64,000 nucleotides of DNA, from the NCBI RefSeq assembly GCF_040958095.1, contig NC_091160.1, positions 42,396,194-42,460,193 on the forward strand. Reading direction: 5' to 3'. The stretch is from Procambarus clarkii (Eukaryota; Arthropoda; Malacostraca; Decapoda; Cambaridae). Shown here piece by piece: positions 9,901 to 61,545 of this stretch. The first letter of the stretch is position 1; each line of letters starts with the position of its first letter. Position numbers and translations under genes: made by a program. The notes below the pieces were generated by a model. That model was not told where the DNA came from and ran no database searches. It saw only the letters and a program-made list of their open reading frames with translations.

Positions 9901-11494
9901 TGGTATCCGGCCGCCAACCTCACAACCATACGCTCTGCTACAATATTAGAACTCTTTGCTCCAGGTTAGTATATAGTGTCATGCCATTAAACTATTAGTA
10001 ATAAGTTTATATGGGTAGGCATGAACACACTCATCATCAAATTTGCACTCACTCGCTCTCTTATTGTCTTTCATCAATCACTCACGCTCACATATTATTT
10101 TGTTCACTCTTTCATCTTCTGTGTGTTAGTTCTCTTGAAACAGTCTCCGTGGTGTAGTGGTAAGACACTCGCCTGGCGTTCCGCGAGCGCTATGTCATGG
10201 GTTCGTATCCTGGCCGGGGAGGATTTACTGGGCGCAATTCCTTAACTGTAGCCTCTGTTTAACGCAACAGTAAAATGTGTACTTGGATGAAAAAACGATT
10301 CTTCGCGGCAGGGGATCGTATTCCAGGGACCTGCCCGAAACGCTACGCGTACTAGTGGCTGTACAAGAATGTAACAACTCTTGTATATATCTAAAAAAAA
10401 AAAAAATAAAAAAAAAAAAAAAATAATAATCTTTTTGTGATTACCGTCTTCAAATCAAATCAAATCAAATGTTTATTTAGGTAAGGTACATAAATACAAG
10501 AGATTTTACAAAGAGTGATGGATTTATAGATAGAGCTAGTACATACAATGCCTAAAGCCACTATTACGCAAAGCGTCTTGTGTATAGTAGATCAGTCTAT
10601 TGAATTCCTCGCTGAATTCAGTCGATCATTGCTTGGGGTTCTACTACCCAAAATCATTTACGTCCTCTAATTACTCGACACAAAGCTGTTATTAGAACAA
10701 TATCTAACTGTGGTCCCAGACATCACTCGGTACCCTTACCCAAATCTTTGAATATAAGAACACTGTTTTTTCCCAAAAAAATGGTGGGTTTTCTGAGGGA
10801 AGAGAAAACGTATGTCTGGAAGCTGACTTTAACCGCCCAAGCTGCGCGCGCAGCGGCCCGAGGTTAAAAAGCTAGGTGTGCAGACTGCGTGGTCCCTCTT
10901 CCCGTCAAGCAAGCAGCTGCTCACTTACAAAACTTATTGTCTATATTAAATTATGCCACCTATTTATAACAATTTGTCTGTCTTCTTAAAGGGCTTCACG
11001 GGCATTTTGATTGTCGGTTCTCAACATATAGGATCGTGAATCTTGTAATGGAATTCTTGTAATGTATTGCACTATCTACCAAATTATTGGTATATCTCAG
11101 AAACATATTTGGGGCCAGTACTGGATCTTTATGGAACACCAGTAGTGACAGTCCCATGGGAAACACTGTCAGGGGCCAATACTGTTCCTAAGGGAATTTT
11201 ATATGTAAAAATAATAATTTTGTTTTTTAACAATTCGTATCATGATTTGTGTATTTAAATGTCTCGCTTTGATTTGTTTGTTAATTCTTTTCATTTTTTC
11301 TTTTCCCAACAGAACACTTTGAAATGATAATGATTAATGCAACACCACTGGCACTGCTTGATATATGCGAAGTATGCGGGTCTTACCAGTGCCCGTATTG
11401 TCCCATCTACAGTGCTGCTTTCCAAGCCAAGCCAGCTGGCTGCATTCTGGGTCTATGGCTTCTGGTAGTGTCCTGGGTCTATGGCTTCTGGTAG
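1283..11494 (+). CDS. Thioester-protein / macroglobulin complement-related (CD109/Mcr-like) gene, 3' part, nine exons
   Basis: Exons 1283-1451, 3411-3538, 3698-3831, 6525-6766, 7312-7473, 7680-7876, 8953-9139, 9856-9964 and 11313-11494 join in one frame. After one leftover base they give 502 codons and a TAG. The product resembles the C-terminal third of alpha-2-macroglobulin/TEP proteins. Exons 1-4 give thioester-domain helices (YIDPHIIHKSVVFLLKYQ, NPDGSF, VETTSYALLVFLV). The next exons give the CUB/MG-like part (DTLVAMQALAEYAF), and exons 7-8 the receptor-binding domain (ALVEVEVPTGYMF). The last exon has a Cys cluster (CEVCGSYQCPYCPIY) and ends in a hydrophobic tail, suggesting a membrane or GPI anchor, as known for CD109. 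The thioester motif lies upstream of the window, so I cannot tell a reactive TEP from a thioester-lacking Mcr. All introns are GT-AG except one apparent GC-AG at 6767. Family members act in opsonisation (TEPs) or septate-junction assembly (Drosophila Mcr). Confidence is high for the superfamily, moderate for the subfamily. Confidence 0.88.
1456..1491 (+). repeat. Partial duplicate of exon sequence just inside the intron
   Basis: The bases after the donor (ttcctgctgaagtatcag, then a diverged gactgatggtagct) repeat exon bases around 1383-1417. This is a short tandem duplication of coding sequence across the exon-intron border, about 73 bp apart. Confidence 0.7.
1590..2090 (+). mobile_element. 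LINE reverse-transcriptase C-terminal remnant
   Basis: Translated fragments in shifting frames resemble the conserved tail of decapod LINE ORF2. They include TYKILNNLEDSDPDSLQKIRC and, near 2010-2040, a PWNCLP-like motif. The same family recurs at 45586-45861 and 47505-47760. A GC-rich insert near 1896-1966 (ctcgggccgggcttgggg) interrupts it and is probably another dispersed repeat. Confidence 0.55.
2247..2558 (+). repeat. 17-bp minisatellite, about 18 copies
   Basis: The unit is cttgtcagtgcctggtg or its variant ending ggcg. The first seven or so units carry ggtg and the rest ggcg, a clean switch near 2365. That pattern suggests two rounds of amplification from different founder units. Because 17 is not divisible by 3, all three plus frames are open over most of the array; these are not genes. 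Confidence 0.95.
2559..3410. other. Intron with LINE 3' remnant and small hairpin
   Basis: 2930-3055 resembles the 3' region of the LINE family seen near 47800 (ccggcttcttgtactc, gtggtcctcaggta). 3258-3268 and 3276-3286 form an 11-bp perfect inverted repeat (ggttgtattgt) followed by a gtatt microsatellite. The rest is AT-rich and unassigned. Confidence 0.5.
3411..3538 (+). CDS. TEP/Mcr-like exon 2 of window
   Basis: Acceptor tattttgaag and donor gtaagt. Codons read MKTGKETCVALTALVTITM and end AVEARARAV plus two bases. The phase joins exactly to the exon at 3698. The Met codon is internal, following the phase-0 end of the previous exon. The acceptor is weak in pyrimidines, so a few bases of uncertainty remain at the left border. 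Confidence 0.78.
3698..3831 (+). CDS. TEP/Mcr-like exon 3 of window
   Basis: Acceptor tgtttacag, donor gtatat. The sequence reads YHIAISAYALTLVGSPLAE, then AMLNKK, a thioester-domain helix typical of the superfamily. It enters with one base and leaves with one base. Confidence 0.83.
3838..3910. repeat. (ATT)n / (TA)n microsatellite
   Basis: A TATA-rich stretch passes into about fourteen ATT repeats immediately after the splice donor of the exon ending at 3831. Confidence 0.95.
4200..4395 (+). mobile_element. tRNA-derived SINE
   Basis: The head contains an A-box-like segment (gggctggacggtagagcga) and a B-box-like segment (gcgttcaatcccc) at tRNA-like spacing. A non-tRNA body follows (cttctcccgtcccatcccaa), ending in a ttccttcc tract. 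It lies in the intron after 3831. An intact tRNA gene is excluded by the lack of an acceptor-stem partner. Confidence 0.65.
4425..5060. repeat. GC-rich dispersed repeat family, copy 1
   Basis: It begins with cggctccccggagctatcc and contains gggaccacgagccagaacctgg. Related segments occur at 8035-8480 (gggaccaccagccagaacctgg) and near 7090-7145 (gagcctctggggttcaccc). A long open frame crosses it (4507-5295) but has low-complexity composition and no recognisable domain, so I treat it as repeat. The class is unknown; it is possibly a non-autonomous element of this lineage. Confidence 0.55.
5300..6460 (+). mobile_element. LINE ORF2 thumb/C-terminal remnants (two tails)
   Basis: The translation contains NLGVLLDRKLSPEDHLKNI, then KLFMTFVRPKLECGVVEW and YEERLEALNMPKLEDRRKR, followed by MITTYKIVTRI: the C-terminal region of a LINE ORF2. 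The tail (gtgatggaggccaaaacc) at 6160-6240 is repeated at 6345-6460, as if a second truncated copy landed next to the first. Several frameshifts and stops mark it as dead. Confidence 0.75.
6525..6766 (+). CDS. TEP/Mcr-like exon 4 of window, GC donor
   Basis: Acceptor cacaatgaaag. Two bases complete a Gly codon, then DMTYWARSP, ELWDSHAVETTSYALLVFLV and MRWLNAVRDWDCAFISTV. The exon must end after GTG at 6766 to join the phase-0 exon at 7312, giving FISTV-DTLVA. That makes the donor gcaagt, a GC-AG intron. Confidence 0.82.
6880..7145. repeat. GC-rich internally repetitive intron segment
   Basis: Short runs such as gggtgacccc and gtggaccccgtgggggcc repeat imperfectly across 6895-7030. Past 7090 the sequence resembles part of the dispersed family at 4425. 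It has no coding signature, and its GC content contrasts sharply with the AT-rich intron. Confidence 0.5.
7312..7473 (+). CDS. TEP/Mcr-like exon 5 of window
   Basis: Acceptor catttcttcag, donor gtacaa, 54 whole codons. DTLVAMQALAEYAFRARL is the characteristic end of the thioester domain and return to the CUB domain. The rest (TLDVTVQPAEHYYVSI) is beta-strand-like. Confidence 0.88.
7680..7876 (+). CDS. TEP/Mcr-like exon 6 of window
   Basis: Acceptor ttttcctcag, donor gtaaag. GAGQAVAQLEITWGVDGLNF fits the segment ahead of the receptor-binding domain in A2M/TEP proteins. The exon leaves two bases that join to 8953. Confidence 0.85.
8035..8480. repeat. GC-rich dispersed repeat family, copy 2
   Basis: It shares ordered blocks with the copy at 4425: a ccccggaggct start, agctatcc, catcagtcag and ccagccagaacctgg. 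It lies in the intron 7877-8952. The remaining intron (8481-8952) shows only short echoes such as gctacctacagtatg, repeated at 8687-8703 and 8714-8730. Confidence 0.55.
8953..9139 (+). CDS. TEP/Mcr-like exon 7 of window (receptor-binding domain)
   Basis: Acceptor tgcgtacag, donor gtaagt. After an Arg codon completed across the junction it reads WVATEDGATSSAALVEVEVP, then TGYMFFQPLAEDVV, the start of the A2M receptor-binding domain. Confidence 0.87.
9355..9650 (-). mobile_element. SINE/LINE 3'-end fragments
   Basis: 9360-9510 on the minus strand has a B-box-like start and the tail shared with the SINEs at 10140 and 48005 (ttacattcttgtaaagcc). 9540-9580 carries a caaat repeat followed by gtttattcgggtaaaagtac, a LINE 3' end on the minus strand. 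Directly joined on the plus strand is the tail seen at 6160 and 6345 (gtggtggaagccaaaatcg). Confidence 0.5.
9856..9964 (+). CDS. TEP/Mcr-like exon 8 of window
   Basis: Acceptor cacgttgcag, donor gttagt. IPSEKKQCFSYNIQRWYPAA then SATILELFAP is typical of the C-terminal strands of the receptor-binding domain. It ends with one base that joins 11313. Confidence 0.86.
10140..10440 (+). mobile_element. tRNA-derived SINE with LINE-like tail
   Basis: The tRNA-like head has an A box (gtggtgtagtggtaagac) and B box (gggttcgtatcc). The body (ggggaggatttactgggcgc) is followed by a tail with cctgcccgaaacgct and cttgtatatatct, then poly(A). The tail matches the 3' end of the LINE at 38971-39040 closely enough to suggest that LINE machinery mobilises it. 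Other copies: 57830-58094 (plus) and 48005-48236 (minus). Confidence 0.85.
10445..10760. mobile_element. LINE fragment with inverted 5' part
   Basis: 10445-10576 is the minus-strand 3' end of the LINE found at 33477-39110 (aaat-type tail, tttatttaggtaaggtac, ctagtacatacaatgcctaa). 10636-10758 is a plus-strand piece of the ORF2 C-terminus (GSTTQNHLRPLITRHKAV). The opposite orientations with the 3' end intact fit twin-primed insertion. Confidence 0.7.
10828..10868. other. GC-rich fold-back sequence
   Basis: Outer arms tttaacc and ggttaaa enclose a 14-bp perfect palindrome (gctgcgcgcgcagc). Function is unknown; it may be a small transposon relic. Confidence 0.6.
11313..11494 (+). CDS. TEP/Mcr-like last exon with minisatellite-encoded tail
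   Basis: Acceptor ttttcccaacag. The exon reads HFEMIMINATPLALLD, then CEVCGSYQCPYCPIYSAAFQ. It then enters the first two 26-bp minisatellite units, which encode LWLLVVSWVYGFW before a TAG at 11492. The tail after AKPAGC is continuously hydrophobic for about 16 residues and ends at once, the form of a GPI-anchor signal or short membrane anchor. The frame agrees with all eight upstream exons. A splice donor before the array would give a different C-terminus, but none with a good consensus is visible. Confidence 0.7.
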
Positions 11495-14357
11495 TGTCCT
11501 GGGTCTATGGCTTCTGGTAGTGTCCCGGGTCTATGGCTTCTGGTAGTGTCCCGGGTCTCTGGCTTCTGGTAGTGTCCCGGGTCTCTGGCTTCTGGTAGTG
11601 TCCCGGGTCTCTGGCTTCTGGTAGTGTCCCGGGTCTATGGCTTCTGGTAGTGTCCCGGGTCTATGGCTTCTGGTAGTGTCCCGGGTCTATGGCTTCTGGT
11701 AGTGTCCCGGGTCTATGGCTTCTGGTAGTGTCCCGGGTCTATGGCTTCTGGTAGTGTCCCGGGTCTATGGCTTCTGGTAGTGTCCCGGGTCTCTGGCTTC
11801 TGGTAGTGTCCCGGGTCTCTGGCTTCTGGTAGTGTCCCGGGTCTATGGCTTCTGGTAGTGTCCCGGGTCTATGGCTTCTGGTAGTGTCCCGGGTCTATGG
11901 CTTCTGGTAGTGTCCCGGGTCTATGGCTTCTGGTAGTGTCCCGGGTCTATGGCTTCTGGTAGTGTCCCGGGTCTATGGCTTCTGGTAGTATCCTGGGTCT
12001 ATGGCTTCTGGTAGTGTCCTGGGTCTATGGCTTCTGGTAGTGTCCTGGGTCTATGGCTTCTGGTAGTGTCCCGGGTCTCTGGCTCTGGTAGTGTCCCGGG
12101 TCTATGGCTTCTGGTAGTGTCCCGGGTCTATGGCTTCTGGTAGTGTCCCGGGTCTATGGCTTCTGGTAGTATCCCGGGTCTATGGCTTCTGGTAGTGTCC
12201 TGGGTCTATGGCTTCTGGTAGTGTCCTGGGTCTATGGCTTCTGGTAGTGTCCTGGGTCTATGGCTTCTGGTAGTGTCCTGGGTCTATGGCTTCTGGTAGT
12301 GTCCTGGGTCTATGGCTTCTGGTAGTATCCTGGGTCTATGGCTTCTGGTAGTGTCCTGGGTCTATGGCTTCTGGTAGTGTCCCGGGTCTATGGCTTCTGG
12401 TAGTGTCCCGGGTCTATGGCTTCTGGTAGTGTCCTGGGTCTATGGCTTCTGGTAGTGTCCCGGGGCTGGAGCTTCTGGTAGTGTCCCGGGGCTGGAGCTT
12501 CTGGTAGTGTCCCGGGGCTGGAGCTTCTGGTAGTGTCCTGGGTCTATGGCTTCTGGTAGTGTCCTGGGTCTATGGCTTCTGGTAGTGTCCTGGGTCTATG
12601 GCTTCTGGTAGTGTCCTGGGTCTATGGCTTCTGGTAGTGTCCTGGGTCTATGGCTTCTGGTAGTGTCCTGGGTCTATGGCTTCTGGTAGTGTCCCGGGGC
12701 TGGAGCTTCTGGTAGTGTCCCGGGGCTGGAGCTTCTGGTAGTGTCCCGGGGCTGGAGCTTCTGGTAGTGTCCCGGGGCTGGAGCTTCTGGTAGTGTCCCG
12801 GGGCTGGAGCTTCTGGTAGTGTCCCGGGGCTGGAGCTTCTGGTAGTGTCCCGGGGCTGGAGCTTCTGGTAGTGTCCCGGGGCTGGAGCTTCTGGTAGTGT
12901 CCCGGGGCTGGAGCTTCTGGTAGTGTCCCGGGGCTGGAGCTTCTGGTAGTGTCCCGGGGCTGGAGCTTCTGGTAGTGTCCCGGGGCTGGAGCTTCTGGTA
13001 GTGTCCCGGGGCTGGAGCTTCTGGTAGTGTCCCGGGGCTGGAGCTTCTGGTAGTGTCCCGGGGCTGGAGCTTCTGGTAGTGTCCCGGGGCTGGAGCTTCT
13101 GGTAGTGTCCCGGGGCTGGAGCTTCTGGTAGTGTCCCGGGGCTGGAGCTTCTGGTAGTGTCCCGGGGCTGGAGCTTCTGGTAGTGTCCCGGGGCTGGAGC
13201 TTCTGGTAGTGTCCCGGGGCTGGAGCTTCTGGTAGTGTCCCGGGGCTGGAGCTTCTGGTAGTGTCCCGGGGCTGGAGCTTCTGGTAGTGTCCCGGGGCTG
13301 GAGCTTCTGGTAGTGTCCCGGGGCTGGAGCTTCTGGTAGTGTCCCGGGGCTGGAGCTTCTGGTAGTGTCCCGGGGCTGGAGCTTCTGGTAGTGTCCCGGG
13401 GCTGGAGCTTCTGGTAGTGTCCCGGGGCTGGAGCTTCTGGTAGTGTCCCGGGGCTGGAGCTTCTGGTAGTGTCCCGGGGCTGGAGCTTCTGGTAGTGTCC
13501 CGGGGCTGGAGCTTCTGGTAGTGTCCCGGGGCTGGAGCTTCTGGTAGTGTCCCGGGGCTGGAGCTTCTGGTAGTGTCCCGGGGCTGGAGCTTCTGGTAGT
13601 GTCCCGGGGCTGGAGCTTCTGGTAGTGTCCCGGGGCTGGAGCTTCTGGTAGTGTCCCGGGGCTGGAGCTTCTGGTAGTGTCCCGGGGCTGTAGCTTCTGG
13701 TAGTGTCCCGGGGCTGTAGCTTCTGGTAGTGTCCCGGGGCTGTTGCTTCTGGTAGTGTCCCGGGGCTGTTGCTTCTGGTAGTGTCCCGGGGCTGTTGCTA
13801 TTGGTAGTGTCCCGGGGCTGGAGCTTCTGGTAGTGTCCCGGGGCTGTAGCTTCTGGTAGTGTCCCGGGGCTGTTGCTTCTGGTAGTGTCCCGGGGCTGTT
13901 GCTTCTGGTAGTGTCCCGGGGCTGTTGCTTCTGGTAGTGTCCCGGGGCTGTTGCTATTGGTAGTGTCCCGGGGCTGTTGCTATTGGTAGTGTCCCGGGAC
14001 TGTTGCTTCTGGTAGTGTCCCGGGTCTGTGGCTTCTGGTAGTGTCCCGGGTCTGTGGCTTCTGGTAGTGTCCCGGGTCTGTGGCTTCTGGTAGTGTCCCG
14101 GGGCTGTGGCTTCTGGTAGTGTCCCGGGGCTGTGGCTTCTGGTAGTGTCCCGGGGCTGTGGCTTCTGGTAGTGTCCCGGGGCTGTGGCTTCTGGTAGTGT
14201 CCCGGGGCTGTGGCTTCTGGTAGTGTCCCGGGGCTGTTGCTTCTGGTAGTGTCCCGGGACTGTTGCTTCTGGTAGTGTCCCGGGACTGTAGCTTCTGGTA
14301 GTGTCCCGGGACTGTTGCTTCTGGTAGTGTCCCGGGGCTGCAGCTTCTGGTAGTGTC
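11447..14357 (+). repeat. 26-bp minisatellite, about 112 copies in variant blocks
   Basis: The unit is cttctggtagtgtcc plus a variable 11 bases. Blocks differ in the variable part: ggtctatgg then ggtctctgg, a long homogeneous run of ggctggag near 12465-13690, then ggctgtag, ggctgttg, ggctgtgg and gtctgtgg near the right end. Single-unit interruptions (a 25-bp unit near 12080, ctattgg variants near 13800 and 13975) can serve as phase markers. Frames open across it are artefacts. Confidence 0.97.
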
Positions 14358-14754
14358 CTGTTTTGGTTACAGGATACCTGATGTTTTGGTTAACAAAGAT
14401 TGGAAAAGTAAATAGATCCTGTAAAAGGCCTTTTGCAAATTTCATTTCTTATGTTCAATATGCGATCTTAGCTTGAAAATTAACTTTGAAAAAATGGGAA
14501 ACAGTATGGCAGTACCTCACTAAGGAAAAACGGGCTTAATGTGGGAAATTGAATGCTGATTGCTTAGGAGACGAAAACATCCCAGACAGGAGCCGGCATT
14601 TTAATCCTCTTGCGACAATTATTGAAAATGTGAATAAAGGTCATAACAGAAAACGGACTTTTTCAGGAAAGATGAAGATTGACTGACGTCATTGACCATT
14701 AGCCATGTCTGTGCAGGGTCACCGCGGTAACGAAATTTAAGTGCAAGCCGGCCT
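14358..14754. other. Unassigned sequence after the minisatellite
   Basis: There is no coding or RNA feature that I can support. It may hold the 3' UTR of the TEP/Mcr-like gene if transcription crosses the array. Confidence 0.3.
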
Positions 14755-39167: not shown

Positions 39168-41298
39168 GTTACCGAAGGACGGTGTTCGTCAGCAGACACT
39201 CCCCGAGGACGGTGTTCGTCAGCAGACACTCCCCGAGGACGGTGTTCGTCAGCAGACACTCCCCGAGGACGGTGTTCGTCAGCAGACACTCCCCGAGGAC
39301 GGTGTTCGTCAGCAGACACTCCCCGAGGACGGTGTTCGTCAGCAGACACTCCCCGAGGACGGTGTTCGTCAGCAGACACTCCCCGAGGACGGTGTTCGTC
39401 AGCAGACACTCCCCGAGGACGGTGTTCGTCAGCAGACACTCCCCGAGGACGGTGTTCGTCAGCAGACACTCCCCGAGGACGGTGTTCGTCAGCAGACACT
39501 CCCCGAGGACGGTGTTCGTCAGCAGACACTCCCCGAGGACGGTGTTCGTCAGCAGACACTCCCCGAGGACGGTGTTCGTCAGCAGACACTCCCCGAGGAC
39601 GGTGTTCGTCAGCAGACACTCCCCGAGGACGGTGTTCGTCAGCAGACACTCCCCGAGGACGGTGTTCGTCAGCAGACACTCCCCGAGGACGGTGTTCGTC
39701 AGCAGACACTCCCCGAGGACGGTGTTCGTCAGCAGACACTCCCCGAGGACGGTGTTCGTCAGCAGACACTCCCCGAGGACGGTGTTCGTCAGCAGACACT
39801 CCCCGAGGACGGTGTTCGTCAGCAGACACTCCCCGAGGACGGTGTTCGTCAGCAGACACTCCCCGAGGACGGTGTTCGTCAGCAGACACTCCCCGAGGAC
39901 GGTGTTCGTCAGCAGACACTCCCCGAGGACGGTGTTCGTCAGCAGACACTCCCCGAGGACGGTGTTCGTCAGCAGACACTCCCCGAGGACGGTGTTCGTC
40001 AGCAGACACTCCCCGAGGACGGTGTTCGTCAGCAGACACTCCCCGAGGACGGTGTTCGTCAGCAGACACTCCCCGAGGACGGTGTTCGTCAGCAGACACT
40101 CCCCGAGGACGGTGTTCGTCAGCAGACACTCCCCGAGGACGGTGTTCGTCAGCAGACACTCCCCGAGGACGGTGTTCGTCAGCAGACACTCCCCGAGGAC
40201 GGTGTTCGTCAGCAGACACTCCCCGAGGACGGTGTTCGTCAGCAGACACTCCCCGAGGACGGTGTTCGTCAGCAGACACTCCCCGAGGACGGTGTTCGTC
40301 AGCAGACACTCCCCGAGGACGGTGTTCGTCAGCAGACACTCCCCGAGGACGGTGTTCGTCAGCAGACACTCCCCGAGGACGGTGTTCGTCAGCAGACACT
40401 CCCCGAGGACGGTGTTCGTCAGCAGACACTCCCCGAGGACGGTGTTCGTCAGCAGACACTCCCCGAGGACGGTGTTCGTCAGCAGACACTCCCCGAGGAC
40501 GGTGTTCGTCAGCAGACACTCCCCGAGGACGGTGTTCGTCAGCAGACACTCCCCGAGGACGGTGTTCGTCAGCAGACACTCCCCGAGGACGGTGTTCGTC
40601 AGCAGACACTCCCCGAGGACGGTGTTCGTCAGCAGACACTCCCCGAGGACGGTGTTCGTCAGCAGACACTCCCCGAGGACGGTGTTCGTCAGCAGACACT
40701 CCCCGAGGACGGTGTTCGTCAGCAGACACTCCCCGAGGACGGTGTTCGTCAGCAGACACTCCCCGAGGACGGTGTTCGTCAGCAGACACTCCCCGAGGAC
40801 GGTGTTCGTCAGCAGACACTCCCCGAGGACGGTGTTCGTCAGCAGACACTCCCCGAGGACGGTGTTCGTCAGCAGACACTCCCCGAGGACGGTGTTCGTC
40901 AGCAGACACTCCCCGAGGACGGTGTTCGTCAGCAGACACTCCCCGAGGACGGTGTTCGTCAGCAGACACTCCCCGAGGACGGTGTTCGTCAGCAGACACT
41001 CCCCGAGGACGGTGTTCGTCAGCAGACACTCCCCGAGGACGGTGTTCGTCAGCAGACACTCCCCGAGGACGGTGTTCGTCAGCAGACACTCCCCGAGGAC
41101 GGTGTTCGTCAGCAGACACTCCCCGAGGACGGTGTTCGTCAGCAGACACTCCCCGAGGACGGTGTTCGTCAGCAGACACTCCCCGAGGACGGTGTTCGTC
41201 AGCAGACACTCCCCGAGGACGGTGTTCGTCAGCAGACACTCCCCGAGGACGGTGTTCGTCAGCAGACACTCCCCGAGGACGGTGTTCGTCAGCAGACG
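39168..41298 (+). repeat. 30-bp minisatellite, about 71 copies without visible variants
   Basis: The unit is ggtgttcgtcagcagacact plus ccccgaggac. From 39181 to 41280 every copy is identical as given. Because 30 is divisible by 3 and the unit has no stop in three of its frames, frames of about 750 codons appear on both strands (for example repeats of RTVFVSRHSP). These are by-products of periodicity, with no upstream signal of a gene. The array starts about 60 bp past the 3' end of LINE A. Confidence 0.98.
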
Positions 41299-43047: not shown

Positions 43048-43195
43048 CACACTCAACCCACACATCTGAAAATAAAGGAAGTTGCGACTTGATAAGAGTC
43101 ATAACGGACCATTAGCAATGGACCGACACTTTGTCACTTGATAATGGTCCATGACGAAGCGACATGTCGTCGCTTCCTTTATTTTCAGATCTGTG
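43048..43195. mobile_element. Fold-back/MITE whose right end seeds the 25-bp array
   Basis: Left end acccacacatctgaaaataa pairs with the right end ttattttcagatctgtgggt. The interior has ttgataatggtccatgacg, a diverged form of the element at 32656. Confidence 0.7.
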
Positions 43196-44930
43196 GGTCG
43201 GGTGTATTTTCAGACCTGTGGGTCGGGTGTATTTTCAGACCTGTGGGTCGGGTGTATTTTCAGACCTGTGGGTCGGGTGTATTTTGAGACCTGTGGGTCG
43301 GGTGTATTTTGAGACCTGTGGGTCGGGTGTATTTTCAGACCTGTGGGTCGGGTGTATTTTCAGACCTGTGGGTCGGGTGTATTTTCAGACCTGTGGGTCG
43401 GGTGTATTTTCAGACCTGTGGGTCGGGTGTATTTTCAGACCTGTGGGTCGGGTGTATTTTCAGACCTGTGGGTCGGGTGTATTTTCAGACCTGTGGGTCG
43501 GGTGTATTTTCAGACCTGTGGGTCGGGTGTATTTTCAGACCTGTGGGTCGGGTGTATTTTCAGACCTGTGGGTCGGGTGTATTTTCAGACCTGTGGGTCG
43601 GGTGTATTTTCAGACCTGTGGGTCGGGTGTATTTTCAGACCTGTGGGTCGGGTGTATTTTCAGACCTGTGGGTCGGGTGTATTTTCAGACCTGTGGGTCG
43701 GGTGTATTTTCAGACCTGTGGGTCGGGTGTATTTTCAGACCTGTGGGTCGGGTGTATTTTCAGACCTGTGGGTCGGGTGTATTTTCAGACCTGTGGGTCG
43801 GGTGTATTTTCAGACCTGTGGGTCGGGTGTATTTTCAGACCTGTGGGTCGGGTGTATTTTCAGACCTGTGGGTCGGGTGTATTTTCAGACCTGTGGGTCG
43901 GGTGTATTTTCAGACCTGTGGGTCGGGTGTATTTTCAGACCTGTGGGTCGGGTGTATTTTCAGACCTGTGGGTCGGGTGTATTTTCAGACCTGTGGGTCG
44001 GGTGTATTTTCAGACCTGTGGGTCGGGTGTATTTTCAGACCTGTGGGTCGGGTGTATTTTCAGACCTGTGGGTCGGGTGTATTTTCAGACCTGTGGATCG
44101 GGTGTATTTTCAGACCTGTGGGTCGGGTGTATTTTCAGACCTGTGGGTCGGGTGTATTTTCAGACCTGTGGGTCGGGTGTATTTTCAGACCTGTGGGTCG
44201 GGTGTATTTTCAGACCTGTGGGTCGGGTGTATTTTCAGACCTGTGGGTCGGGTGTATTTTCAGACCTGTGGGTCGGGTGTATTTTCAGACCTGTGGGTCG
44301 GGTGTATTTTCAGACCTGTGGGTCGGGTGTATTTTCAGACCTGTGGGTCGGGTGTATTTTCAGACCTGTGGGTCGGGTGTATTTTCAGACCTGTGGGTCG
44401 GGTGTATTTTCAGACCTGTGGGTCGGGTGTATTTTCAGACCTGTGGGTCGGGTGTATTTTCAGACCTGTGGGTCGGGTGTATTTTCAGACCTGTGGGTCG
44501 GGTGTATTTTCAGACCTGTGGGTCGGGTGTATTTTCAGACCTGTGGGTCGGGTGTATTTTCAGACCTGTGGGTCGGGTGTATTTTCAGACCTGTGGGTCG
44601 GGTGTATTTTCAGACCTGTGGGTCGGGTGTATTTTCAGACCTGTGGGTCGGGTGTATTTTCAGACCTGTGGGTCGGGTGTATTTTCAGACCTGTGGGTCG
44701 GGTGTATTTTCAGACCTGTGGGTCGGGTGTATTTTCAGACCTGTGGGTCGGGTGTATTTTCAGACCTGTGGGTCGGGTGTATTTTCAGACCTGTGGGTCG
44801 GGTGTATTTTCAGACCTGTGGGTCGGGTGTATTTTCAGACCTGTGGGTCGGGTGTATTTTCAGACCTGTGGGTCGGGTGTATTTTCAGACCTGTGGGTCG
44901 GGTGTATTTTCAGACTTGTGAGTTGGCTGT
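43181..44930 (+). repeat. 25-bp minisatellite, about 70 copies
   Basis: The unit is attttcagacctgtgggtcg plus ggtgt. Only a handful of variants occur (attttgagac twice near 43285-43315, ctgtggatcg near 44090, degenerate units at the right edge). The first unit is the terminal sequence of the fold-back element at 43048, so the array grew from a transposon end. No stop occurs in any plus frame, which explains the three 535-585-codon frames; they are not genes. Every unit contains tgtattttcag, a fair match to a 3' splice site. Confidence 0.97.
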
Positions 44931-45138
44931 ATTTAATAGTCTTTAGTTGATGTAGTGATTGTAGACGAATGCAGGATAAAGTTGATTACCATTTATATTA
45001 ATATTTAAACTTTTAAATAGTGGTAATTTTTTCTATGTAACAAAAAAATCCAGAAAATGTGAAAAACTGAAAGGCATCATTTAACACTCGTGGAATATAA
45101 CCTGGGAGTGACTGTGTGTATATCTTTTAAATCATCAG

Positions 45139-52700: not shown

Positions 52701-54695
52701 TTTCATGGAAGGAAACACATAAAGAGAGAGTATTAGTTCTCCCATGTAATTTATAGAGACCTTTACTATATCTTAATATATCCTTTAACTTAACCCTGTT
52801 TTCTGAAGAAAGCTGTGATGCATATTATATTCCTTCTTGGGATGGAATATTAGCATAAATTATTGTTCTACCTGGATTTGAACTGGTGACTGAATGAAAT
52901 AAAGAATGATGTTCCCTCTCATGAGGTATGTGACAGATTTTTGAGAAAGAAGTCTTGTAAGGAGTCAAGAAATTGATTCTCTTATCTTGTGATTATAAAT
53001 TAAAGACTATTAATGATAACATACAAAAGATAAATTCAGAGAGCTAGTGATGGGACCCAGCTGATATTATGGTATGAAGTAAAGGACATGGTACATGTCC
53101 AATGAGAGGATAAGAGTTGTGTGAAGCAGCTTGAAAACTGCTCTGTAGACATGGAAGAAGTTAGGAGGATACATTTAGACAGGGCTTACATGATGCATTT
53201 CATTTGGACTTATTTCCTCAGAGAAAAGTTTTTGATGGATGCAGTGTCTTAAGATTTAGGGAGATTAATAATAATAGTTTTATCTATAATCCATCCTGTA
53301 CCAACACTTCAGGAATCTGTACACCAGTTAATTGACAGATGAGAGGCGAGACCAAAGAGCTGAAGCTCAATTCCCGCAAGCACAACTAGGTGAGTATAAC
53401 TAGTTGAGTGCAGTACTAAAATGAACATATATTCAAGCAAACATGTATATCTCACATACGCCATTTGAATTAAATAAGGTAAGGTAATTATGAGGAGAAA
53501 GCGCTAAAGCAGTACAGTACAGTATGATTATCTTGCACTTAAGAACTGGGATAGAGTGGAAGGAAGGAATGGTGCCAAACGCCATGAACCATTGAGGATC
53601 AAACGCCGACCTGCAAGAAGCAAGCCCATCACTGTACCAACCAGTCCAAATGTTTCGGATATTGAATACAGTAAATTATTATCTTTTAATAGGGACTCCT
53701 GAGTGTGGACCCACTGACGTATACTGAGGTTAGCACACGACTGTCTCTGGAAGAATGTTTAGAGTCCATTATGAGTGAAGCGGCGCTGATGGCTGACTCC
53801 TGTACACGAGATGATCGCCACCACAAGATCGTGAAGGAATGTGATGCAGTGAGACAAGCACTACAAGATCTTCTTAATGAATACATGGACAATGTAAGCT
53901 TACAAAATATATCTATTATTAATACAACTATGGTTAATAGTTTATTGAGACAATGAGTTGCCAAAACAAATAAAGAGTTCTTATGGGATAGATTGTGTGT
54001 AGAAACATAAACTTTGACTACTGCATGTAATTTATGGATAAATGCAACTTTCTTAAAGGAACGTACATGGCTTAATGGGTTAACAGTAAACTCTTCATGA
54101 TCTTTATGAAAAGTAATGATTATAATGGCTGCAGTAATGATGTTATTTACAATGAGAGAGATCAGACAATGAAATATATATAATAGGAAGAAATCACTGA
54201 ATAACTGTGATGGTGATGTGGTTAATATGAGCAGTAAAGTAGAAGGAAGACCGGAGAATGACATGATGGATATGAAAGGCCTCAGGAATAAATGTCAATG
54301 GTGGTGTAGGTTAAAAATGTAATGCAAGATTCACATTCAAAATACATACTGTATTACAAATTCTGTAGTAAAATATTAATCTTCTAAGGTGGAATTATTG
54401 ATAAAATTCATATAAAAAAGCCAAAATATTCACATATATACATTGAGGTTTTCATTAATTTAAATGTGGGATTTTGTCTTGGTCTGCAATAACGACAATT
54501 GAGCTTCACTTCTAGTTAGGCAGTGAAAAACTCAGAAAATTCTGTTCATACTATCATCCACTCTTCTTCACTGTTTTAGATGGGTTGCAAGGAGCCCTCA
54601 GACGATTTGAATAAAGCTGTTGACCTGGTGGGTCGCAAGACAAAGGATTTGCGGCGTCAGCTGCGTAAAGCTGTTGTTGATCATGTGTCAGACAG
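45139..54695 (+). CDS. Alpha-catenin gene, N-terminal half (seven exons, continues beyond window)
   Basis: Coding starts at the ATG at 45206 (tcaagATGg, good context). Exons 45139-45337, 48323-48512, 49485-49651, 50210-50419, 50949-51125, 53693-53893 and 54580-54695 join in one frame for 397 codons plus two bases. The protein follows alpha-catenin of flies and vertebrates colinearly: LEIRTRSLEKALEPLV, VTTLVNTKGPSKKKKGRSKR, RTLLSAVTRLLILADMVDVH, AVNTISDVV, ECDAVRQALQDLL and KTKDLRRQLRKAVVDHVSD. It covers the beta-catenin-binding/dimerisation N domain and the start of the M domain with the vinculin-binding helix. It links cadherin-beta-catenin complexes to actin at adherens junctions; the actin-binding part is not in the window. 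Several substitutions in usually invariant stretches (LEECLESI where LEERLESI is usual; a shortened ADSCTRDD) leave open a diverged paralogue. Confidence 0.93.
45586..45945. mobile_element. LINE C-terminal remnant and 20-bp tandem repeat
   Basis: 45861-45590 on the minus strand reads RHDRARLIKTFKILNNLADV, then DPDSFFKVRY, a LINE ORF2 C-terminus. 45831-45900 holds about four copies of gtgttgtacaatctagtaca. Related tgtacaatctag sequence reappears at 47870-47940 beyond the next LINE piece. Confidence 0.65.
45955..46410 (+). mobile_element. LINE reverse-transcriptase C-terminal remnant, part 1
   Basis: It reads KRSDDWQMLFNIDKCKTLPV, then after a shift KKANQTRGIIKRTFDFK and VIQLYKSLVRPHLDYC. It is continued at 47505-47760 (LKILNNLEDVDPENFF). 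The intervening 1.1 kb looks inserted. Confidence 0.65.
46411..47504. other. Insert of unknown class between two LINE parts
   Basis: It contains a gt-rich microsatellite (46476-46520) and C homopolymers (46926-46937, 47358-47371, 47466-47479). A pyrimidine-rich stretch runs 47280-47480. No coding signature or terminal repeats that I can define. Confidence 0.4.
47505..47870 (+). mobile_element. LINE remnant, part 2 and 3' UTR
   Basis: It begins with an ATG-containing stretch reading LKILNNLEDVDPENFF, then LRLNKPQCRTENRRCF. The 3' end gccggcttcctgtcctcgtc matches the remnant at 2990. Stops after YPPKL confirm decay. Confidence 0.65.
48005..48236 (-). mobile_element. tRNA-derived SINE, antisense in intron 1
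   Basis: On the minus strand: head gtggcacagtggtaacacac, B box gagttcgcatcc, body ggctggggaggattgac and a tail with cctgcccgaaacgct. It ends in tatatata at 48005. Same family as 10140. Confidence 0.8.
48323..48512 (+). CDS. Alpha-catenin exon 2
   Basis: Acceptor tcaacaacag, donor gtaaaa. VTTLVNTKGPSKKKKGRSKR is nearly the family consensus, including the basic patch of the beta-catenin-binding region. It ends DEVKKAG in phase 1. Confidence 0.95.
48583..48745. repeat. Dispersed repeat, copy 1
   Basis: It begins tttattaacaagcttaggta, then acagcaatgtactgctacc. A close copy stands at 49820-49985 in the next intron, in the same orientation. Probably the end of an unclassified retroelement. Confidence 0.65.
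48750..49005 (-). mobile_element. tRNA-derived SINE, second family, antisense
   Basis: Minus-strand copy of the element at 23931: B box gcgggttcgatccgcgg, body cccctgttacctagcagtaa, ctacgggctgcttcctgg, and end agataacctcaag at its 3' side. Confidence 0.8.
49070..49390 (+). mobile_element. LINE RT fragment interrupted by a Tigger MITE
   Basis: 49090-49188 reads YVAISDITYTTLPLTIGVPQ, then GSILGPLLFLIY, an RT palm block. A 162-bp MITE lies at 49189-49350 (ends cagtggaacctggttgagg and cagtggaacttcggttgac, TA on both sides). The RT appears to resume at 49353. The coding part is only about 120 bp. Confidence 0.75.
49485..49651 (+). CDS. Alpha-catenin exon 3
   Basis: Acceptor cttataccag, donor gtatgt. 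AARQFAEDPCASVKRASMAQ, then AARTLLSAVTRLLILADMVD is highly characteristic of the family. Confidence 0.95.
49725..50209. other. Intron with (AAT)n, LINE-like tip and dispersed repeat copy 2
   Basis: A (taa)n microsatellite at 49721-49749 is followed by tgtttatttaaaagaatatg, a LINE-like 3' tip. 49820-49985 copies the repeat at 48583. The rest is AT-rich. Confidence 0.6.
50210..50419 (+). CDS. Alpha-catenin exon 4
   Basis: Acceptor tttttcatag, donor gtgcaa, 70 whole codons. LLQLAARRQHELKDPRLRDE, then STMLLTASK follow the fly protein closely. Confidence 0.95.
50603..50725. repeat. 30-bp direct duplication with inverted third copy
   Basis: gacgtcttcaaggcacctga plus aggctgccaa occurs at 50603-50632 and 50633-50662. 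A diverged inverted copy lies at 50698-50725 (ggcagccttcatgtaccttc). The transcript could form a hairpin here in intron 4. Confidence 0.75.
50949..51125 (+). CDS. Alpha-catenin exon 5
   Basis: Acceptor aatcctccag, donor gtaagt, 59 whole codons. YVRHPELAAVKANRDFVLKQ, then EAVNTISDVV and GGLASALDDFD fit the end of the N domain. Confidence 0.95.
51239..52345. mobile_element. Intron 5 transposon-derived DNA with a tandem dimer
   Basis: TTAA at 51235 is followed by ccactgcactgtgcagagtg, an end like that at 42516. 51700-51790 and 51880-51990 are two copies of one segment (ttgtctggactcaccatacc, ataacatgtgtatatagtgt), separated by gaggcgccattttggtgagg. The same dimer occurs inverted at 55229-55640. 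The element class is uncertain. Confidence 0.5.
52346..53692. other. Intron 5 remainder
   Basis: 52349-52410 begins ttaaccactgtgctacactg with an internal repeat (actggccgagaaaact), possibly another TTAA-type end. 53560-53645 has a degenerate SINE look (gaggatcaaacgccgacctg). Otherwise nothing is recognised. Confidence 0.35.
53693..53893 (+). CDS. Alpha-catenin exon 6 (vinculin-binding helix)
   Basis: Acceptor tcttttaatag, donor gtaagc, 67 whole codons. LLSVDPLTYTE, LSLEECLESIMSEAALMADS, then ECDAVRQALQDLLNEYM: the last corresponds to the vinculin-binding helix of the M domain. A Cys replaces the usual Arg in LEERLESI. Confidence 0.95.
54580..54695 (+). CDS. Alpha-catenin exon 7
   Basis: Acceptor tcactgttttag. 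GCKEPSDDLNKAVDLVGRKT, then KDLRRQLRKAVVDHVSD. It ends gacag followed by gttagt and leaves two bases. The next exon (expected to start FLET) was not found up to 64000, so this intron exceeds 9.3 kb. Confidence 0.94.
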
Positions 54696-55228
54696 GTTAG
54701 TATTGGTCATGCATATCATACAGGTCAGTATCAGTCATGTGTATCATACAGGTCAGTATTATTCATGTGTGTGTCATACAGGTCAGTATTAGTCTTGTGT
54801 GTGTCATACAGATCAGTATTGATCATGCTTGTGTCATACAGGTCAGTAATAGCCCTTAACCGTTGGGCTGCTCTTGCAATTACAGCCTGCAACACGCCCA
54901 AGTGCAAGAAATACAAAAAATAAAAAATAAATTTTGTCTTATAAAAGTGTTCATTTGTGTTCTGTGATCATGGGAAAAAAATGAAAAAAAAATTGTAGGT
55001 GGCATATTTTGGCTGCAAAAGATCAGGGAAGTCTGGCAAAAACAGAGTTATTGACAGATCAAGCGCTGGAGGTGGTCTGCTCCACCACCACCACCTCCAC
55101 CCCAGCTGTCAAGCGGGAGTTGCCACAGATATTATTACCTAATTATTTCAATGTCTCTGATTTTTTTTGTTTGCAGTAATATTATTCAATAGTGTGTAGT
55201 GTGATACATTTATATAATAAAATGTGCG

Positions 55229-55640
55229 AACCCACTGTACAAATAAGCTGGTATGGTAAGCAAGACAATAATTGAGGTCGCGACACAGTCAGCTGATGCT
55301 CCTCCCTCACTCATCAACATTCCTACTCCCTCTATACTGTTTGTGCTGTTATTATACTATATACACACATTATATATAAGTATCTACATGTTTTGTTAAC
55401 CATAACTGTACAACTAAGCCGGTGTAGTGTCCAAACAACATTTGTGGCCACAACAAAATTGCACGACAAGAGATGCAGCAGAAGACGCCTCCTCCCTCAC
55501 CAAAATGGCTCCTCCCAACATACTCCTTTTGCTATTATATATAACGTGTGTATATAGTGAAATATGTATCTACATTTGTGTTCACCATAGCGAACCACTA
55601 AGCTGTTATGGTGAGTGCAGACAATAACAGGTGGCCACAC
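55229..55640. repeat. Tandem dimer, inverted relative to 51700-51990
   Basis: It carries tcctccctcaccaaaatggc, tgttcaccatagcgaaccac and ttatggtgagtgcagacaat, complementary to blocks in intron 5. Each site has two unequal copies. Confidence 0.65.
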
Positions 55641-57085
55641 ACGAAAATATGACATCGCAAGCAAGGCAAAGACTCAACCTAAAATGCTGCACAGTCACAT
55701 CAGGAGAAAAACAACAGTAAAGGAACAGGTAATGAATTTGAGGATAGGGGCAGACAGATTCACTACAAACGACAAGGAAGTGTGCAAGGAACTGAATAAG
55801 AAATTCCAGAAGGTCTTCACATTAGAGCAAGGGGAAGTTCCAGAGATAAGAGAAGGAATAGTTAACCAGGAACCACTAGAAGAGTTTGAGATTACCAGTG
55901 GGGATGCAAGGAAGCTCTTGGTAGAGTTGGGTTGGACATGTATATGAGTGGGATTGGGTGGTTATAAATAGGAGCTGCCTCATATGGGCCAATAGGCCTT
56001 ATGCAGTTACAATGTTCTTATATTCTTATGTTGGATGTGACAAAGGCTATAGGCCCAGATGGAATCTACCCATGGATACTAAAGGAAGTAGCAGAAGCAC
56101 TTTGCCTGCCACTCTATAGTGTATAACAAGTCACTGGTAACAGGGGAATTGCCAAAAATTTGGAAGACTGCTAATGTAGTCCCGATATACAAGAAGAGGG
56201 AGATAGACAGGAAGCACTGAACTACAGGCCAGTGTCCCTAACTTGCATACCATGCAAGCTGATGGAGAAGATTGTGCGAAAAAAGCTTGTGGAACATCTG
56301 GAGCGAAAGAACTTTGTAACACAGCATCAACATGGGTTTAGAGATGGCAAGTCCTGCCTCACAGGATTAATTGAATTCTATGACCAGGCAATACAAATCA
56401 GACAAGAAAGAGAGGGGTGGGCAGACTGCATATTTTTGTATTGCCAGAAAGCCTTTGACACAGTACCACACAAGAGGCTAGTGAAAAAGCTGGAGATGAA
56501 GGCAGGAGTGAACGAGAAGGTACGCCATTGGATAAAGGAGTACCTAAGCAACAGAAGACAGCGAGTCACTGTGAGGGGTGACAGATTGGCGAGACGTCAC
56601 CAGTGGAGTCCCACAGGGTTCAGTCCTTGGACCTATACTGTTTCTGATACATGTAAATTATCTCCCAGAGGGTATAGAATCGTTCCTCTCATTGTTTGCT
56701 GATGATGCAAAAATTATGAGGAGGATTAAAACAGAGGATGATAGTAGGAGGTAACAAGATGACCTAGATAGACTGAATGAATGATCAAACAAATGGCTAC
56801 TAAAATTCAACCTGAGTAAATGCAAGGTCATGAAACTAGGTGGTGGAAACAAGAGGCCAGACACAGGATAGCGAATGGGAAATGAAGTACTTCATGAAAC
56901 GGACAGAGAGAAAGATCTAGTTGATATCACACCAAACCTGTCTCCTGAAGCCCACATTAAAAGAATTACATTTGCGGCATACACGAGGCTGGCTAACATC
57001 AGAACAGCCTTAAGGAACCTGTGTAAGGAATTATTCAGAACCTTGTACACAGCATATGTAGGTTGTGTCGTCAGCAAATAGAATT
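55640..57085 (+). mobile_element. LINE ORF2 remnant inside the piggyBac element
   Basis: Order: MLHSHIRRKTTVKEQVMNLR and FQKVFTLEQGEVPE (linker), then an insert at 55928-56030 (cctcatatgggccaataggc). The reverse transcriptase follows: NYRPVSLTCIPCKLMEKIV, FVTQHQHGFRDGKSCLTGL, KAFDTVPHKRLVKKLE, and [14 protein letters not shown] near 56690. The C-terminal LSPEAHIKRITFAAYTRLAN ends the coding match. Catalytic FADD is present but several frameshifts break the frame. 57058-57090 matches a 30-base piece of the other LINE (34622 region). Confidence 0.85.
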
Positions 57086-57829
57086 GGTTTGACTCTTACT
57101 CTTTCCCACCGTTTCCCAAAATTACTCTTCCCACCATACTATGCACAGCGCTAATTATCAGAACAATCCTGCTATTATTATATACAGTATTGATAATCAT
57201 TACACTATTGATATTGGAACCTGTTCCGAGTAGCTGAATCTATAACAACAACTATTGATAATGTAGCTGGGGTGAGTAACTATTGCAGGGCGGTGCACCA
57301 CAGCTATGTATGTTTGGGACTATCGCACAAGATTTAAATGGCCCGCGGATTAGAGGGGGCACCCATACATTGGTCAGAGCCGATAGTAAACAGATGCCAT
57401 CTTGGAAAAAATCCAGCTTAGGCCGCCATTGAGAGGGAGCCTTAGTTATCCAACAATCACCATGATGAGTGCATCACGTTCCAGCGGCTGACCGCACCGC
57501 ACCACCCAATCAATGACTGAGGATGAAATTCATATTAAACTATTTTCTGATGTGAGGAAACTGATATTGATGACTGACATTGATAAAGACTATACACAAG
57601 AGTCCGATGGGAATGAAACCGAGAGAGAATGATATTGTGCCTACTCCGAGGGTGAGGCCTACATGCTCACCACTGCCTCCTTGCCCACACTCTACACCAA
57701 TTTTCTACCGACTACACAGTTCATGTGTTTATGTGCAGTATGAGGATGTTCAGAGCGACGAGTCAGAGATTTTGTGAAGTTGAATCAGAAAATAGCATTA
57801 CCACGCCTGTAGCTAGTACCAGTGGGATG

Positions 57830-58094
57830 CGTGGTATTACCAAACGATGTTTTGTCGCTGGCATTCCGGAAGCGCTTTGTCATGGGTTCGTATCCTGGCC
57901 GGGGAGGATTTACTGGGCGCAAATCCTTAACTGTACCCTCTGTTTAACTCAACAGTAAAAGGAGTACTTGGTTGTAACAACGTTTCTTCGCGGCGGGGAT
58001 CGTATTCCAGGGACCTGCCCGAAACGCTACGCGTACTAGTGGCTGTACAAGAATGTAACAACCCCTTTATATATCTCAAAAAAAAAAAAAATAA
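57830..58094 (+). mobile_element. SINE inside the piggyBac transposase
   Basis: Same family as 10140: gtcatgggttcgtatcctgg, ggggaggatttactgggcgc, cctgcccgaaacgctacgcg, poly(A) at 58079. The tRNA head is diverged or truncated. Confidence 0.85.
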
Positions 58095-58874
58095 ATTGGC
58101 TGCATCTCGCCCAGCCAAATGCCGCCGCATGGCATCACATGGAGACAATGAGGAACAAAGTCCCTCATGTTCACGTCATTTTACCTCATCTTCAGTTCCC
58201 GCCCGTATTGTTAGTAGACAGACTTCAGCTTGTCCACAATGTACACTGATCCCTGGCCTTGGTGCCGCTGTTGCGCCTCGCAAGACACCAGGTGTGCTTG
58301 TGTGGAGTGATGGTGCAGATTTTGTTCCACAAATTCCTGCCTTTGACAATACAGATGTTGGAATTACGAACCTTTTCTCTAATACTGATGAGGACATGTG
58401 TGAAATGGACTTTTTTACTGCATATTTTGATGAGCCACTCATGGAACATAATGTTCAGGAAATGAACAATTACACGGCTGATCTCATTGAACGTGAGGAG
58501 TTATTATCTCAATTTTCACAATTACGGCGTTGGAAAAACACTAATGTAGGTGAAATCTATGTATTTCTTGCACTATGTATGTTGATGAAACATTGTGTAA
58601 AACATGTCATCACAGATTATTGGAGCAAAGACCAGACTGTTCCAACACCATTCTTCGGGAAATGTGTGTCTCGAGACAGCAGGTTTGTGATACTCCTCAG
58701 GTGTCTTCATTTTACAAGTAATGAAGACCAGACAGAGGATGATGGATTTTGGAGGGTGAGGCACAGTCTGAATGAACTTATTAGAAAGTTCAGAGATTTT
58801 TATGTACCAGCTCAGAAGCTGGTGACTGATGAATCCCTTGTGCTTTTCAAAGGACGTGTTGCCTTCAAGCAGTA

Positions 58875-59029
58875 CACGGGAGACATCTCCTGTCACGCAG
58901 GGTGCAGTCGCACCTCCACAGATCTCCAATGGCTCAAAATGGTAATGGCTCAAAAGGGCCACCACTTACGGGCTATTCATGCCCGTGCCACCTTTTGGGT
59001 GGCTTAATCTTCATTAATCAATCAATCTT
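58875..59029 (+). mobile_element. Short SINE with 10-bp target duplication
   Basis: The insert starts cacgggagacatctcctgtc, carries gggctattcatgcccgtgcc and ends in a tcaatcaatc tail. The duplication tcaagcagta is at 58865-58874 and 59030-59039. Removing it restores colinearity with piggyBac transposases (residues FKQY). Confidence 0.9.
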
Positions 59030-61545
59030 TCAAGCAGTATATTCCCTCTAAATGTCACAGATTTGGATTGAAATTCTTTGTACTCTGTGACTGTGAAACA
59101 GGAATTGTATTACACATGATTCTATATTCCGCTACCAATGTAGACATTCTCGGTAATGACCAACATGGTTTCTCAGGTAGTGTGGTGAAGACACTGATGG
59201 CACCATGGCTGAACAAAGTCCACCTTTTATACACCAATAGCTAGTAACAAATCCCTTGCTTACTAGGTTCTTGCTTGAAAATAGAACTGGAGTGTGTGGC
59301 ACAGTAAAGGCAAAAAGAAGGGAAGTGCTTGTGTATGACAATAATATTGCAGTTGGTGACTGCCAGGTAAGAAAAACTGATCAAATATTCTCAGTGAGAT
59401 GGAAAGACAGGTGAGAAGTGAACATGTTGACAACCGTTCACACTGGCACAAAGGTGAACAGTGGCAAGGCGAACAGAAGAACAAAACAAACAATATATAA
59501 ACCAGATTGTGTTATGGACTATAACATAAACTTGCATTTGGTTGGTAAATGTGACATGATGGTGGGTGCTTTTGAGTGTGTACGTTAAATAGTGAAGTGG
59601 ACCAAAACATGTTTTTTCACCTTGTTGACGTAACCATGCTGAAGTTTCAATATGTATCTGGTGAAAACAGGTCAAATTGTTTGTTTCCGTGTGTTTAGTT
59701 TTTCTGTTGAGACAATTACTACAAAAGTTTGGCAAAGACATTCCTGGCATACAAAGACCCATTCAGAAGCCAGTATTGCACCATGCTGCTACATCCAGGC
59801 TCACTTACAGCGAGGGCCTTCAAGTACACACACTAAAACATTTACCACCAACTGGAAAGCATCCAGTAGCCCAGCATGAGTGTATTGTTTGTAAAACCTC
59901 ACAAACAAGGCCACATACATGTAAAGTGGTGCTAATGGTGTGAAGTGTGAGCCGTCCCTTTGTGTCATGTTTCAACGACTGCTTCTGCTTCAACAACTAC
60001 CACAATCTCCAGGACTTCGAAATGTCCAATAATGGTGCAAAAACCTGTAAATATTGAGTGAGTGCATGTATATATGGATGAAAAATCTGAATACATATAT
60101 GTTGTAAAAGAAAACATTTGTGTGCGAATTATTGTGACACTAATATGTGAGAGTGTATTGAATGTATGCAAGTTGTATTATAATACAACATCAAGTAACA
60201 ATACATTGAACAATACCAGTGAAAAAAAATGTGGTAAAATACGCCTAGACACTGTAAATAATGCCGTGAAAAAAATTGTGGCAACTCTGGCTGCTTGAAT
60301 GCCGGAGGCGACGCCACCGGGACGCACGCGGCTTCAGCGACCACTTGCTGTGACCTCATCATCAAATTTCTGGCTCATTCAAGTCATTGTTAAGTATAAA
60401 AAAAATTATTTTTTCCTGTGATCAGGGAACACATTTCAACACTTTTACAAGACGAAATAAGTTTTTGAAATTTGTTTTTCTTGCGCCAGAGTGTATTGCG
60501 GGCTATAATGGCAAGTGCTGCCCAGGGGTTAGTCATGTGTGTCATACAGGTCAGTACTGGTCATGTGTGTGTCATATAGGTCAGTATTGGTCATGTGTGA
60601 CATACAGGTCAGTATTGGTCATGTGTGACATACAGGTCAGTACTGATCATGTGTGACATACAGGTCAGTACTGATCATGTGTGACATACAGGTCAGTACT
60701 GATCATGTGTGACATACAGGTCAGTACTGATCATGTGTGACATACAGGTCAGTACTGATCATGTGTGACATACAGGTCGGTACTGATCATGTGTGACATA
60801 CAGGTCGGTACTGATCATGTGTGACATACAGGTCAGTACTGATCATGTGTGACATACAGGTCAGTACTGATCATGTGTGACATACAGGTCGGTACTGATC
60901 ATGTGTGACATACAGGTCGGTACTGATCATGTGTGACATACAGGTCAGTATAGGTCATGTGTGTGACATACAGGTTAGTATAGGTCATGTTTGTGTCATA
61001 CAGGTCAGTATAGGTCATGTGTGTGACATACAGGTCAGTACTGGTCATGTGTGACATACAGGTCAGTACTGGTCATGTGTGACATACAGGTCAGTATTGG
61101 TCATGTGTGACATACAGGTCAGTATAGGTCATGTTTGTGTCATACAGGTCAGTATAGGTCATGTGTGTGACATACAGGTCAGTATAGGTCATGTTTGTGT
61201 CATACAGGTCAGTATTGATCATGTGTGTCATGCAGGTCAGTATTGGTCATGTGTGTGACATACAGGTCAGTATAGGTCATGTTTGTGTCATACAGGTCAG
61301 TATTGATCATGTGTCATACAGGTCAGTATTGGTCATGTGTGTGACATACAGGTCAGTATAGGTCATGTTTGTGTCATACAGGTCAGTATTGATCATGTGT
61401 CATACAGGTCAGTATTGGTCATGTGTGTGTCATACAGGTTAGCATTGATCATGTGTGTCATACAGGTCATTACAGGTCATGTGTGTGTCATACAGGTCAG
61501 TATTGATCATGTGTCATACAGGTCATTACTGGTCATATGCAGATC

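Follow-up and report, generated by a model that had tools for sequence, protein, structure and literature searches.

A minisatellite of splice-donor copies at an exon border of a crayfish alpha-catenin gene, and its likely origin from that border

How an intron can come to open with a long row of copies of its own 5' splice site, and what such a row may mean for the transcript, is the question raised by an alpha-catenin locus in a crayfish genome. The window, meaning the whole stretch of DNA analysed here, spans 64000 bp (G000:C11:42396194-42460193) of an assembly of 4.03 Gb in 2308 contigs. Searches by tblastn with the human protein place seven alpha-catenin coding exons at 45.2-54.7 kb of the window. 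The gene extends past the window, with exon 8 beginning at 68091 (window numbering), 13,395 nt beyond exon 7. Coding exon 7 (54580..54695, plus strand) is identified by its match to the human protein, by the similarity of its 37 residues to alpha-catenin in the PDB (best E 7.3e-10, Catenin alpha-1, human) and by the same border in a paralog on contig C33. Its Pfam Vinculin match (E 8.9e-8, 31.4 bits) is that of a 37-aa piece and lies under the 38.1 cut-off, while exon 6 scores above it at 51.7. The border reads TTGATCATGTGTCAGACAG/GTTAGTAT, and the last 18-19 nt of the exon are the putative parent of the repeat unit.

The minisatellite consists of 40 in-register copies of this junction in units of 26-30 bp, the first at the exon 7 border, arranged in blocks of 5 and 35. 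The left block (54696..54852, plus strand) holds four copies with GT and one with AT (54812), and the right block (60529..61542, plus strand) has GT in 35/35. Spacings within the blocks (n=38) are 28 bp in 19 cases, 30 bp in 16 and 26 bp in three. The 26-bp units are the closest to the exon in sequence and lie on the plus strand near the far end of the array. Over a junction window of 18 nt before and 8 nt after the border, those at 61296..61321 and 61382-61407 match the exon border at 24/26, and that at 61496-61521 at 22/26, with an altered donor. The initial annotation had described an array that adjoins exon 7 and nearly repeats its end, which is confirmed by the 40 in-register copies running from the border and by a 14/15 match to the exon. 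The unit that it gave, tgatcatgtgtgacatacag followed by gtcagtac, is real and belongs to the right block. It does not describe the left block, whose units adjoin the exon and yet diverge from it more than the distal units do; alignment of units with the border accordingly succeeds for the right-block 26-bp units and less well for the left ones. An account that derives the array from the exon therefore needs divergence at the edge. The appeal to a GTRAGT consensus does not hold either: the array donors are mostly GTCAGT or GTCGGT and fall outside that consensus because of the pyrimidine at +3, and the real donor, GTTAGT, misfits it too.

The likeness between unit and exon stands well above the background of the window. 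Ahead of CAG, 14 of the 15 exonic bases are identical to a unit; the best of 2309 control CAG sites outside arrays (both strands of the window) reach 11/15, at 2 sites, and a simple model puts the chance of the exon-unit match at 5.6e-7. For the six remaining alpha-catenin exon ends of the window, the match is 5-7 of 15. When the array is compared with the masked window, the exon 7 end ranks top with a score of 17, followed by a runner-up at 14. Counted gap-free over 18 exonic bases, three units match at 17/18 and 37 of the 40 copies at only 8-12, largely through displacement by short GT expansions. When 1041 bases around exons 6 and 7 were searched against the genome, five matches came up, namely the query itself, two exons of the C33 paralog and two places in the array, which match the 35-nt border at 94%. 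The exon 1 border (45337), GTAATGATCATGTTTG, was also considered as a relative of the unit and rejected, since its score of 13 is background and it reaches 7/15 in the border test.

Across the 4.03 Gb genome, which was searched by a method that leaves out very common words and scores the best candidates, the right-block query had 112 matches listed. Eight of these reach at least 80% identity, all at this locus, and the remainder lie at 67-75%; because very common words are skipped, the uniqueness of the array is strong but not absolute. The initial annotation had held that the same 28-bp satellite at unrelated loci would count against an exon origin. No such locus appears at 80% or more among the matches listed, so the pattern of a dispersed satellite family is not seen, and the satellites at six weaker loci have TRF units unlike the array unit. 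This comparison took in six of nine weaker regions, with three loci on contig C3 (L019-L021) and further C3 matches left aside. When aligned circularly against three types of unit, the C11 exon border scores 17-22, the C33 border 15-20 and the six weak-locus units 3-12. Five of these six units score above all 60 shuffles, a result that says little because they were preselected as the best matches out of 4 Gb. An exact-pattern scan for the unit found no match in viral or prokaryote contigs, as expected for an animal repeat.

The second alpha-catenin gene, on C33 at about 42322700-42392300 (L026-L034), allows the direction of change to be read. Its exon 7 ends TTGATCATGTATCAGACAG/GTCAGTTT (donor GTCAGT), with the intron at the same position as in C11, and no tandem array was found in the 3182 nt of that intron. 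Because the two borders are nearly the same at one intron position, the border antedates the gene duplication. Since the array is unique at 80% or more among the matches listed and the paralog has the border without it, the exon came first and the array after; as one outgroup gene, the C33 copy represents the parent without the array, which is the pattern of a locally born minisatellite. The origin by tandem amplification of the exon border that the initial annotation proposed is supported on the same grounds, and the opposite finding that it had envisaged, an array older than the exon likeness in an outgroup, is not what the C33 paralog presents. The simplest reading would be gain of the array on the C11 side, with loss on the C33 side less likely. 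The best units match the C33 border at 24/27 and the C11 border at 25/27. At position -5, all 40 copies carry T and both exons carry G; at +3, 38/40 copies carry C, as does the C33 donor, while the C11 exon has T. These positions would be most simply explained by growth of the array out of a single derived copy, followed by a change in the real C11 donor.

The two genes have also evolved at different rates. Over 769 residues aligned in C11, C33 and the human sequence (ends trimmed), 525 are identical to human in C33 and 485 in C11, with 58 changes specific to C11 and 18 to C33. Between the copies, dN is 0.098 and dS 1.07 (ratio 0.09). The gene that hosts the array is a constrained yet faster-evolving duplicate, which is suggestive, though only that, of a setting in which imperfect splicing may be borne. 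Three further features of the pair were noted. The C33 gene has two places that match the first coding exon (17721 and 21621 of the joined stretch), perhaps alternative first exons. Its interval between exons 5 and 6 carries a 22-copy 28-bp array (98% match; G000:C33:42359374-42360000, L026 9374-10000) that runs to the end of the stretch. The C11 exon 8 acceptor (68076-68090, window numbering), CTTGCTTCCTGGAAG, looks weaker than the paralog's TTCATTCTTTTCAG.

The two blocks of the array are separated by an insert of about 5.7 kb with the features of a piggyBac-type transposon. Including its target-site copies, the element occupies 54856..60532 and has long imperfect inverted ends, with TTAA on the left (54856-54859) and TTAG in place of the standard copy on the right (60529-60532). 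An open frame on the plus strand (57931..59007) encodes part of a piggyBac-type transposase domain (DDE_Tnp_1_7, PF13843, E 6.3e-24, profile positions 2-150 of 349), and a reverse transcriptase fragment (PF00078 RVT_1, E 4.9e-14) lies within the element at 56175..56702, also on the plus strand. The left end had 42 matches listed in the genome (best 40 of 1321 candidates scored), and the other family copies that were checked have TTAA at the examined end in 19/19 cases. The flanks join head to tail, giving a 28-nt unit, to which 7 nt are added if the boundary is placed at the standard TTAA. An empty site joined at 54848/60529, which would give the perfect 28-nt unit, was dropped, since other copies of the family begin at TTAA and the boundary is thus set at 54856-54859. 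The natural inference is that the array predates the transposon, which landed inside it.

Whether the copies matter for splicing depends on their strength, frame and distance. Strength was assessed with a donor frequency matrix and by pairing with the U1 5' end. The authentic 5' splice site, GTTAGTAT (54696..54703, plus strand; CAGGTTAGTAT), joins exon 7 in frame to exon 8 (...DHVSDSFLETT...), and CAG/GTTAGTAT has a U1 duplex of -10.1 kcal/mol and a matrix score of 8.60. It is a good donor, given that the donors of the other six exons in the window reach only 3.76 to 7.85 by the matrix. Copies with CAG/GTCAGTAT reach -9.9 kcal/mol and 9.11, and those with CAG/GTCAGT -9.4 to -9.9 kcal/mol. GT is kept in 39/40 copies, and 31 score at least as high as the real donor by the matrix, a level attained by 14 of 1117 GT sites on the plus strand of the gene region outside arrays. 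As most decoys are about as good by U1 pairing and by the matrix, splicing need not favour the first donor.

The consequences of using a decoy would, by contrast with the real donor, be uniformly unproductive. Reading through from exon 7 meets a stop at 54790. Eight of the 39 decoys keep the frame, all of them past this stop, and three precede it, so that none does both. When the nearest four (+28, +56, +86 and +146) are joined to the real exon 8, a stop falls in the exon 7 extension or in exon 8 in 4/4 cases. Distance limits the supply further: 35 copies are 5.8 kb or more downstream of the exon, and only four intact decoys are close, giving exons of normal size (144-262 nt). The dozens of usable donors envisaged in the initial annotation are thus reduced to four nearby, without one that yields a stop-free frame. 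Use of a decoy would give a truncated and probably unstable mRNA, and the exon-proximal donor is most likely the one used in most transcripts. An effect of the array on the mRNA level is possible.

Taken together, these observations are best explained by duplication of a border segment in one paralog, its expansion and its later splitting, leaving an array that is tolerated as a by-product while the first donor is mostly used, an account that we regard as likely. In this scenario, a segment of about 26 bp, running from the 3' end of exon 7 into the first bases of intron 7, would have been tandemly duplicated in one alpha-catenin gene. The copies would be donor-like because the parent segment contained a donor. 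Ordinary minisatellite dynamics would then have multiplied one derived copy into about 40 units of 26-30 bp, before a piggyBac-type transposon split the array. The gene would most likely function through the exon-proximal donor in most transcripts, since decoy use, through a frame shift or stop, should produce only truncated and probably decayed mRNA. The array may thus be a by-product that the faster-evolving paralog tolerates.

Other accounts differ over where the units came from and what they do. An unrelated satellite might have landed beside exon 7, with the likeness due to chance or to later conversion. The surroundings are indeed rich in minisatellites (seven arrays, both blocks included, sum to 8477/64000 bp) and other contigs carry weak matches (67-75%), but this reading is very improbable in view of the exact-register match at 14/15, the different units carried by the satellites at six weak loci and the nearly identical, array-free border of the paralog, which also speaks against conversion of the exon. 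Recursive splicing, in which AG/GT units would serve as successive steps that remove intron 7 piecewise, could draw on the AG directly before the donor in each unit and on a CTGAT, branch-point-like by the consensus, 17-18 nt upstream in many. No clear pyrimidine tract lies ahead of the AG, however, and an exon-border origin alone explains AG/GT, which makes this a highly improbable alternative. Equally little credence attaches to the proposal of the initial annotation that redundant donors buffer splicing of the exon or yield alpha-catenin isoforms of use to the animal. A row of many near-identical donors invites that idea, but redundancy and full-length isoforms are unlikely because 0/39 decoys are in frame and stop-free, the eight in-frame ones all following the stop at 54790, and only four fall within ordinary exon length.

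A regulatory role also seems unlikely. The array might tune the output of the C11 gene, with decoy use or retention by U1 yielding non-productive mRNA and copy number setting dosage. Consistent with this, 31 decoys equal or exceed the real donor by the matrix (14/1117 among other GT sites of the gene region), the four proximal decoys define exons of normal size (144-262 nt), their products are truncated with no decoy giving a full-length frame, and two of the downstream repeat units in human IFI6 reportedly act as donors (PMC4526556). Against it, the transposon has shifted most decoys 5.8 kb off, and there is no sign of selection for the array. A specific form of this idea, for which the prospects are slim, is a copy-number-tuned poison-donor switch. 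Here, one productive donor competing with a row of equal, non-productive ones would set the dosage of the second alpha-catenin gene, a copy that is diverging, and the piggyBac element would have relaxed the switch by moving 35/39 decoys out of reach.

The human IFI6 gene (6-16, G1P3) carries a minisatellite with a unit of about 12 bp, which adjoins the authentic exon border and is related to it in sequence. Its multiple splice donors were reportedly described by Turri, Cuin and Porter in 1995. The crayfish array likewise has a donor junction in its unit, with GT kept in 39/40 copies, and begins at a related authentic exon border, and thus appears, from its sequence, to be another splice-donor minisatellite of the IFI6 kind, with evidence for its origin. 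It differs in its alpha-catenin host, in its about 40 units of 26-30 bp, in being split by a transposon and in being known from genome sequence alone; in addition, no decoy here can keep the full-length frame, and a paralog gives the direction in which the array originated. In both cases tandem repeat units carry splice donors, which in IFI6 are supplied as alternatives, two downstream units reportedly serving as donors to give three mRNA species (PMC4526556), and which in the crayfish array are predicted look-alikes.

In the potato RdRp gene, an intron is reported to have been gained when a stretch spanning a splice border was duplicated in tandem (PMC4974935). As proposed here, a segment that crosses an exon-intron border was tandemly duplicated there and the splice signals were copied directly; one duplication created a new intron in potato, whereas repeated duplication in alpha-catenin would have built a satellite inside an existing intron. 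Short-unit tandem arrays are reported to be numerous in freshwater crayfish (PMC13130569). The alpha-catenin array resembles them in being such an array and differs from those reported there in having an identified parental exon border; in a word search, the main text of that paper had no use of intron, exon or splic. Our literature search, whose coverage left most subscription journals outside, found no other donor minisatellite. The locus offers a clean, polarised case in which a splice junction gave rise to a minisatellite, with parent, array and array-free paralog in one genome. It also provides a natural test of how the spliceosome chooses among a row of near-identical donors, and of whether it is chiefly diverging gene copies that tolerate arrays of this kind.

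Other arrays in the window deserve brief description. At 43180-44934, a 70-copy array of a 25-bp unit contains TATTTTCAG, a good look-alike of a 3' splice site, which is present there in 68 exact copies and is otherwise absent from the window's plus strand. Because this array carries such a motif, splice-like motifs in arrays may arise without an exon parent. An inverted single copy of its unit (23/26) at 43049-43074 is a possible parent or relative. The array at 39176-41297 repeats a 30-bp unit 70.7 times at 100% match, which marks it as very young or strongly homogenised, and five long open frames (three plus, two minus) are listed across it. Lastly, a 26-bp unit is repeated 112 times (97% match) at 11449-14358, where a minus-strand open frame of 571 aa covers more than half of the array.
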